Assembly: GCF_032118995.1 (NCBI RefSeq)
Contig: NC_092661.1
Coordinates: 2,420,501-2,484,500 of the forward strand
Reading direction: 5' to 3'
Origin: Asterias amurensis
Taxonomy: Eukaryota; Echinodermata; Asteroidea; Forcipulatida; Asteriidae
Length of the DNA stretch: 64,000 nucleotides
Each line of letters starts with the position of its first letter. The stretch's first letter is position 1. Shown here in pieces: positions 50,769 through 51,885 of the stretch. The translations under genes were made by a program, and so were the position numbers. The notes beneath the pieces are model-generated. The model had not been told where the DNA came from and made no database searches. It saw nothing but the letters and a program-made list of their open reading frames with translations.

Positions 50769-50904
50769 GCACCGTCGAACTTGGGGCCTTAGCCGACCCC
50801 TTAGCCAAAGTCGTGGTTTTGAAAAGCCTAAGCTTTGAGGAAATTTTAGTTTACAACACTGGATACTAACACGGTGTACTTTGTATCTATTTTGGTCTTA
50901 ATAG

Positions 50905-51885
50905 GCTGACCAGTGCACCGGTCTTCAGGGTTTCCTCATCTTTCACAGCTTCGGTGGTGGTACCGGCTCTGGCTTCACATCTCTGTTGATGGAGCGTCTG
51001 GCCGTCGACTACGGCAAGAAGTCCAAGCTGGAGTTTGCCATCTACCCCGCCCCACAGATCTCCACAGCTGTAGTAGAGCCTTACAACTCCGTGCTGACCA
51101 CTCACACCACGCTAGAGCACTCCGACTGTGCCTTCATGGTCGACAACGAGGCCATCTACGACATCTGCCATCGTAACCTCGACATCCAGAGACCGACCTA
51201 CACCAACCTTAACCGTCTCATTGGTCAGATCGTGTCCTCCGTCACTGCTTCACTTCGCTTTGATGGTGCCCTCAACGTCGACTTGACAGAGTTCCAGACC
51301 AACTTGGTGCCCTACCCACGTATTCACTTTCCTCTTGCCACCTACGCCCCAGTCATCTCTGCTGAGAAGGCCTACCATGAAGAGCAGACCGTTGCTTCGC
51401 TCACCAAAGGCTGTTTCTTGCCTGCAAACCAGATGGTGAAGTGTGATCCCCGTCACGGCAAGTACATGGCTTGCTGCCTCCTGTACCGTGGTGATGTCGT
51501 CCCCAAGGATGTCAACTCTGCCATCGCATCCATCAAGACCATGCGCACCATCCAGTTCGTTGACTGGTGTCCAACTGGCTTCAAGGTGGGCATCAACTAC
51601 CAGCCACCTACCGTGGTGCCTGGTGGTGATCTGGCCAAGGTGCAGCGTGCCGTCTGCATGCTGAGCAACACCACCGCCATCGCTGAGGCTTGGGCTCGTC
51701 TGGATCACAAGTTTGATCTGATGTACGCCAAGCGTGCCTTCGTCCACTGGTACGTAGGAGAGGGTATGGAGGAGGGTGAGTTCTCTGAGGCTCGTGAGGA
51801 TCTGGCTGCCCTTGAGAAGGACTACGAGGAGGTCGGAATCGACTCTGCCGATGATGAGGGAGAGGACGAAGGAGAGGAATATTAA
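50905..51885 (+). CDS. Extra alpha-tubulin last exon T4x (326 codons, no exons 1-3)
   Basis: This exon corresponds to residues 126 to the end of alpha-tubulin ([10 protein letters not shown] to the tail [16 protein letters not shown]). It is uninterrupted and has an acceptor TCTTAATAG identical to that of T3. It keeps GGGTGSG and DLTEF (Glu254) and ends in EEY. No exon-1, -2 or -3 homologue lies between T3 and this exon. It could be joined to T3's exon 3 as an alternative last exon (isoform of 451 aa) or be silent. Compared with T3 it differs mainly in one short block, [18 protein letters not shown] against [18 protein letters not shown], plus DICHRN, DIQRP and IKTMRT. About 74 bases of T3 intron 3 and T3 3' flank were copied with it. 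A 1.45-kb transposon sits ten bases after the stop. Confidence 0.85.

Follow-up and report, generated by a model that had tools for sequence, protein, structure and literature searches.

The alpha-tubulin array of the sea star Asterias amurensis contains a last exon, here called X, which is probably a 5'-truncated tandem duplicate that was under constraint in the past, was maintained by gene conversion, or both, and which today lacks exons 2 and 3 and any recognisable promoter. X would represent the 3' portion of a gene duplicated in tandem within the array, the sister of its upstream neighbour T3. For most of the time since the split from T3 it may have belonged to a working gene, working copies may have overwritten it through conversion, or both may apply; X would then have lost, or would never have had, its 5' exons, and is presumably not made into tubulin today. 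Occasional read-through splicing from T3 to X is possible and would not be expected to matter. Known processes, namely truncated tandem duplication with recent beheading or conversion, suffice to explain these observations.

The window is the whole stretch of 64,000 nucleotides that was analysed (C14:2420501-2484500), and positions given without a contig refer to it. The region examined around it spans 254 kb (C14:2410501-2664500), and searches of the organism's own genome covered 491.5 Mb (491,506,623 bases) in 23 contigs, all counts of places being lower bounds. Alpha-tubulin last exons (exon 4) were located in at least 22 places and alpha exon 2 in at least 21, and X is the sole exon 4 found without a partner exon 2; every one of the 21 exon 2s located in these contigs is accompanied by an exon 4 of its own. 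Nineteen alpha-tubulin exon 4s lie in the 254 kb region, where they form an array of about 211 kb (C14:2443007-2654238) with T12-T14 on the opposite strand, and exons 2 and 3 stand in order before 18 of these 19, the exception being X. The three alpha copies outside the array, at C14:757k, at C14:768k and on C15, all possess exons 2, 3 and 4. In eight consecutive copies of the array, T10-T17 (C14:2553259-2633689), exon 3 is fused to exon 4 and intron 3 is absent. Beta-tubulin-like groups are located at C3:19.558-19.597 Mb and C10:5.41-5.43 Mb, and one of their members, at C3:19558486, gave no exon-2 match and was considered as a second orphan candidate; it is preceded, at a distance of about 3.5 kb, by an upstream exon and does not parallel X. 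The window also holds an open frame of 290 aa (11332-12204), which we take to resemble a sulfotransferase-type protein.

Table 1. Features of T3, of exon X and of the sequence around them, in window positions.
Feature	Position	Strand	Remarks
T3 candidate exon 1 end (ATG then GTAAGT)	37792..37794	+	putative; the 9 kb before T3 exon 2 hold no other match to ATG followed by GT[AG][AC]G
T3 exon 2	45124..45346	+	
T3 exon 3	46058..46206	+	followed by a donor at 46207; phase 0 at its 3' end
T3 exon 4 (the gene's usual last exon)	46964..47947	+	
Dispersed repeat upstream of X	50048..50302	+	at least 2 copies at 87% elsewhere in the array
Dispersed repeat of about 390 bases	50382..50768	+	very abundant in the genome; 13,609 candidates at first look, of which 40 were scored
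Intron 3 tail with X acceptor	50814..50904	+	homologous to T3 46866-46963; 73/90 aligned bases identical
X, orphan alpha-tubulin last exon	50905..51885	+	residue 126 to C-terminus, 326 codons, plus TAA
Island, codons 284-299	51379..51426	+	18 differences to T3, 14 of them X-derived
Putative poly(A) signal ATTAAA	51881..51886	+	overlaps the X stop codon
DNA transposon-like element, 1.45 kb	51896..53349	.	terminal inverted repeats, flanked by TTA at either end
3' flank resembling that of T3, moved away from X by the transposon	53358..53619	+	homologous to T3 48206-48456

An earlier, sequence-only reading of this DNA had described X as an open exon running from residue 126 to the C-terminus about 3.0 kb after the T3 stop, and both statements are borne out, the exon beginning 2,958 bases past that stop (47947). 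The disabling lesions expected of a pseudogene are absent, as X contains neither stops nor frameshifts in its 326 codons, and its acidic C-terminal tail ends in EEY. A splice from T3 exon 3 (46206/46207) to X would be in frame, with phase 0 on both sides. Because an in-frame TAG ends at the X acceptor and the first ATG of X is residue 154, the exon is unreadable as a whole tubulin without splicing. X also differs from a processed pseudogene (retrocopy), in that the tail of intron 3 lies upstream of it and exons 2 and 3 are absent.

Homology between X and its neighbour extends past both exon borders, as is found for truncated duplicates, and involves the intron tail (Table 1) and the 3' flank, in which 177 of 227 aligned bases are identical with 9 gap events; at E 1e-4, both match only T3 in the 254 kb array. 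The same earlier reading had proposed that about 74 bases of T3 intron 3 were copied along with the exon, and the intron tail is indeed present, with a length of about 77-91 bases (start at 50814 or 50828 depending on the alignment method, end at 50904). Likewise, the at least 250 bases of 3' flank which it took to be copied can be recognised, but they are not contiguous with the exon, the 1.45 kb transposon lying between. The acceptor, which had been called identical to that of T3, is nearly so, with 29 of 30 aligned bases identical plus one inserted base in the last 31 intron columns, compared with 44 of 60 in the remaining tail (Fisher p 0.009). Since this near-identical acceptor, together with the first 59 exon bases, which are also near-identical to T3, stands beside the more divergent intron, and since the acceptor tracts of other intron-bearing copies, judged by eye, differ from those of X and T3, the comparison suggests that the acceptor may owe its likeness to T3 to a conversion tract rather than to splice-site selection. 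T3 intron 3 further contains a palindromic repeat (46299-46368) with relatives near the end of the window (63530-63641).

The transposon-like element begins 10 bases past the X stop and has perfect arms of 19 bases. No open frame of 120 aa lies wholly within it, and 16 other near-full-length copies share 94-100% identity with it, which makes it a member of a recently active family. As its identity to another copy reaches 100%, it probably entered the 3' flank of X recently. A 3-base TTA target duplication would presumably fit the PIF/Harbinger group. After the ATTAAA at 51881, the next candidate poly(A) signals are found beyond the transposon (ATTAAA at 53617 and AATAAA at 54249).

As already stated in the sequence-only reading, nothing convincingly like exon 2 or 3 is located between T3 and X (47948-50904), the best tblastn hit having an E of 2.3 and the best blastn hit an E of 1.3. 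The first-exon pattern of ATG followed by GT[AG]A[GA] gave no candidate in this interval, and the single ATG followed by GTACGT, at 48793, is a possible first exon; joined directly to X, it would yield a product without residues 2-125. One candidate relic of exon 3 (50770-50824) carries CACCGTCG and then TGGTTTTGAAA in the right order. The former occurs at five places on the plus strand of the window, of which the other four are tubulin exon 3s, and the latter at two, the second being just past the T3 exon 3 donor. Against shuffles the relic alignment looked good (0.004); under the first scoring scheme, 647 of 14,506 control windows (4.5%) score at least as high, and the relic is therefore unsupported. 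Three other scoring schemes gave 498, 109 and 432 such windows of the 14,506.

In trees of 20 of the 22 copies, in which several nodes are weak and conversion violates the assumption of a single tree, X is the sister of T3 with an ultrafast bootstrap of 94, or of 95 without codons 284-299. The two exons differ at 51 of 942 bases, and, polarised by the majority of nine close copies, 32 of these changes are X-derived and 19 T3-derived. Outside codons 284-299, 13 of the X-derived changes are silent and 5 are replacements (neutrality P 6.5e-5, given that replacements would make up about 0.74 of non-stop changes), and 9 silent and 3 replacement changes are left when a T18-like patch is set aside in addition to this island (P 6e-4). 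The corresponding T3-derived changes outside the island comprise 14 silent and 1 replacement, and the contrast between X and T3 is not significant (p 0.19). In a fit of omega to 19 of the 22 copies (T7 dropped, C14:757k and 768k left out, gapped codons past 439 excluded), the X branch without codons 284-299 has an omega of 0.068, as against 0.064 for one ratio, and an omega of 1 is rejected (LRT 26). When these codons are included, the value rises to 0.16 against 0.066 (LRT 5.2 versus one ratio) and is still below 1 (LRT 23), with conversion as a confounding factor. On dN/dS, which the earlier reading had proposed as a check, X is at background outside the island and above it once the island is counted.

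That reading had further argued that a silent copy should be collecting stops, which carries little weight, as neutrality would lead to only about one stop among 32 X-derived changes and the probability of none is 0.37. The silent and replacement counts and the missing frameshifts partly do the work for which the argument from stops was meant: if X had been neutral since the split from T3, the indels of the flanks predict about 14 frameshifts where none is observed, on the assumption of equal indel rates in flanks and exon. Because its changes outside the island are mostly silent, its omega there is low and no frameshift is present, X did not spend most of its history in plain decay; with no conversion and equal rates, any neutral period would take up at most about the last fifth of the time since the split.

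Of the 32 X-derived changes, 14 are concentrated in the island of codons 284-299, which makes up 48 of the 942 bases (P 1.6e-10 for a stretch picked post hoc); 8 of them replace a residue and 6 are silent. Four T3-derived changes fall into the island as well, and it may be the result of one complex event. We take these codons to correspond to the end of the M-loop and helix H9. Two replacements in X, E297L inside the island and K338M outside it, affect residues that are uniform in 21 of 21 other copies, and R214H is absent from all 21. Five of 171 matched solved alpha-tubulins, which to judge from their names are of alpha-1A/1B type or a similar 'alpha chain', all carry R214, E220, E290, E297 and K338. 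As for a donor of the island, the top hit to 51371-51450 elsewhere in the genome reaches 81%, and when short words of 51385-51432, which is 6 bases off the island, were sought in the array, nothing beyond 13-base matches emerged besides X itself; the tubulin-like places on C3 and C10 are ruled out as donors by an identity of 32-33%. Both the island and the lack of a head count against X being an ordinary working tubulin.

Gene conversion in the array can mimic constraint. A run-length permutation test on 118 silent polymorphic codons of 11 copies gave a global result of 0/5,000, and T3-T15 is the strongest pair (0/5,000 permutations, a run of 40 codons), so that conversion is likely between these two genes, which lie about 145 kb apart (T15 from C14:2611949 on). 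The pairwise values for X are weak (0.033 with T12, 0.035 with T19 and 0.055 with T3, uncorrected for the 10 X pairs). Codons 184-198 of X are nearest to T18, with 3 differences as compared with 6 to T3. Outside the island, the silent distance of X is 0.134 (dS) to T14, which has no intron 3, and 0.146 to T3, and the flanks of X have no match to the T14 region at E 1e-4. Silent divergence between X and T3 (27.5 of 207 sites) is lower than the divergence of their flanks (67 of 317; Fisher p 0.02). Outside the island, the derived base is found in another copy for 16 of 18 changes in X and 14 of 15 in T3, a sharing which by itself is no proof of conversion. The constraint on most of X is either real or borrowed from other copies.

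These findings bear on further readings of the exon. It would be unlikely, though not at odds with the reading frame, that X serves as an alternative last exon of T3, whose exon 3 would be joined either to 46964 or, past its exon 4 and poly(A) signals, to 50905, so that two tubulins would share a single N-terminal part. The open exon with its intact, phase-compatible and T3-like acceptor, the purifying selection outside the island, the lack of frameshifts and the acidic tail ending in EEY are all what such a use would predict. A transcript of T3 would, however, first meet the gene's own exon 4, which is intact, and AATAAA signals at 48703 and 49377, both before X; past function or conversion would account for the constraint just as well, unusual replacements are found in codons 284-299 and at 338, and a transposon sits within the 3' flank. 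Even less probable is the more specific proposal of two T3 alpha-tubulins made in this way, of which the X form would have a rewritten 284-299 and a different lateral-contact region. None of the observations speaks for an alternative last exon in particular rather than for a duplicate that was recently beheaded or is maintained by conversion.

The constraint on X would also fit a complete fifth gene, whose exons 1-3 dropped out during assembly or are missing just from the haplotype that was sequenced. The loss in assembly was one of the refuting cases raised in the sequence-only reading, and we regard a complete gene as distinctly improbable, given that the 254 kb region contains no N, that each of the 21 exon 2s is paired with an exon 4 of its own and that the interval between T3 and X holds nothing convincing like exon 2 or 3. 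We attach the least credence to the idea that the copying which gave rise to X took in nothing but intron tail, exon 4 and 3' flank, that X never had a head and that conversion alone keeps it tubulin-like. Homology to T3 does begin near 50814-50828, beside repeats, and conversion is present in the array, but the predominance of silent changes, 9 against 3 even outside island and patch, would demand frequent conversion over nearly the whole exon, and the direct tests of conversion into X are weak.

The probable origin of X as a truncated duplicate can be compared with known systems. As in other 5'-truncated tandem gene duplicates, X shares its last exon, a piece of the last intron and the 3' flank with its neighbour, its first exons are absent and repeats are near; unlike an old, decayed fragment, it is fully open and mostly under purifying selection. 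In the literature considered, mainly titles and the openings of abstracts, there is no account of the X exon or of a tubulin from alternative last exons, and the word 'tubulin' is absent from the main text of an Asterias amurensis paper (PMC10625585). The beta-tubulin paralogues of Leishmania are described as having homogenised coding parts, perhaps through ectopic gene conversion, and differing flanks (PMC1533823). This concerted evolution resembles the present case, which differs in that the array is one of alpha-tubulins in a sea star with one headless member. Transcription-induced chimeras, or intergenic splicing of neighbouring genes, are the subject of two further reports, to go by their abstracts (PMC2174484; PMC3041646). 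A transcript of T3 and X would similarly arise by read-through and splicing into an exon of the next gene, whereas X, as the downstream partner, lacks exons 2-3 and a recognised promoter.

If X were spliced to T3, it would represent an unusual route to tubulin isotypes. If it is unspliced, it would be a neat case of an orphan array exon which stays open and looks constrained, and it would serve as a warning against equating openness with function where gene conversion runs.
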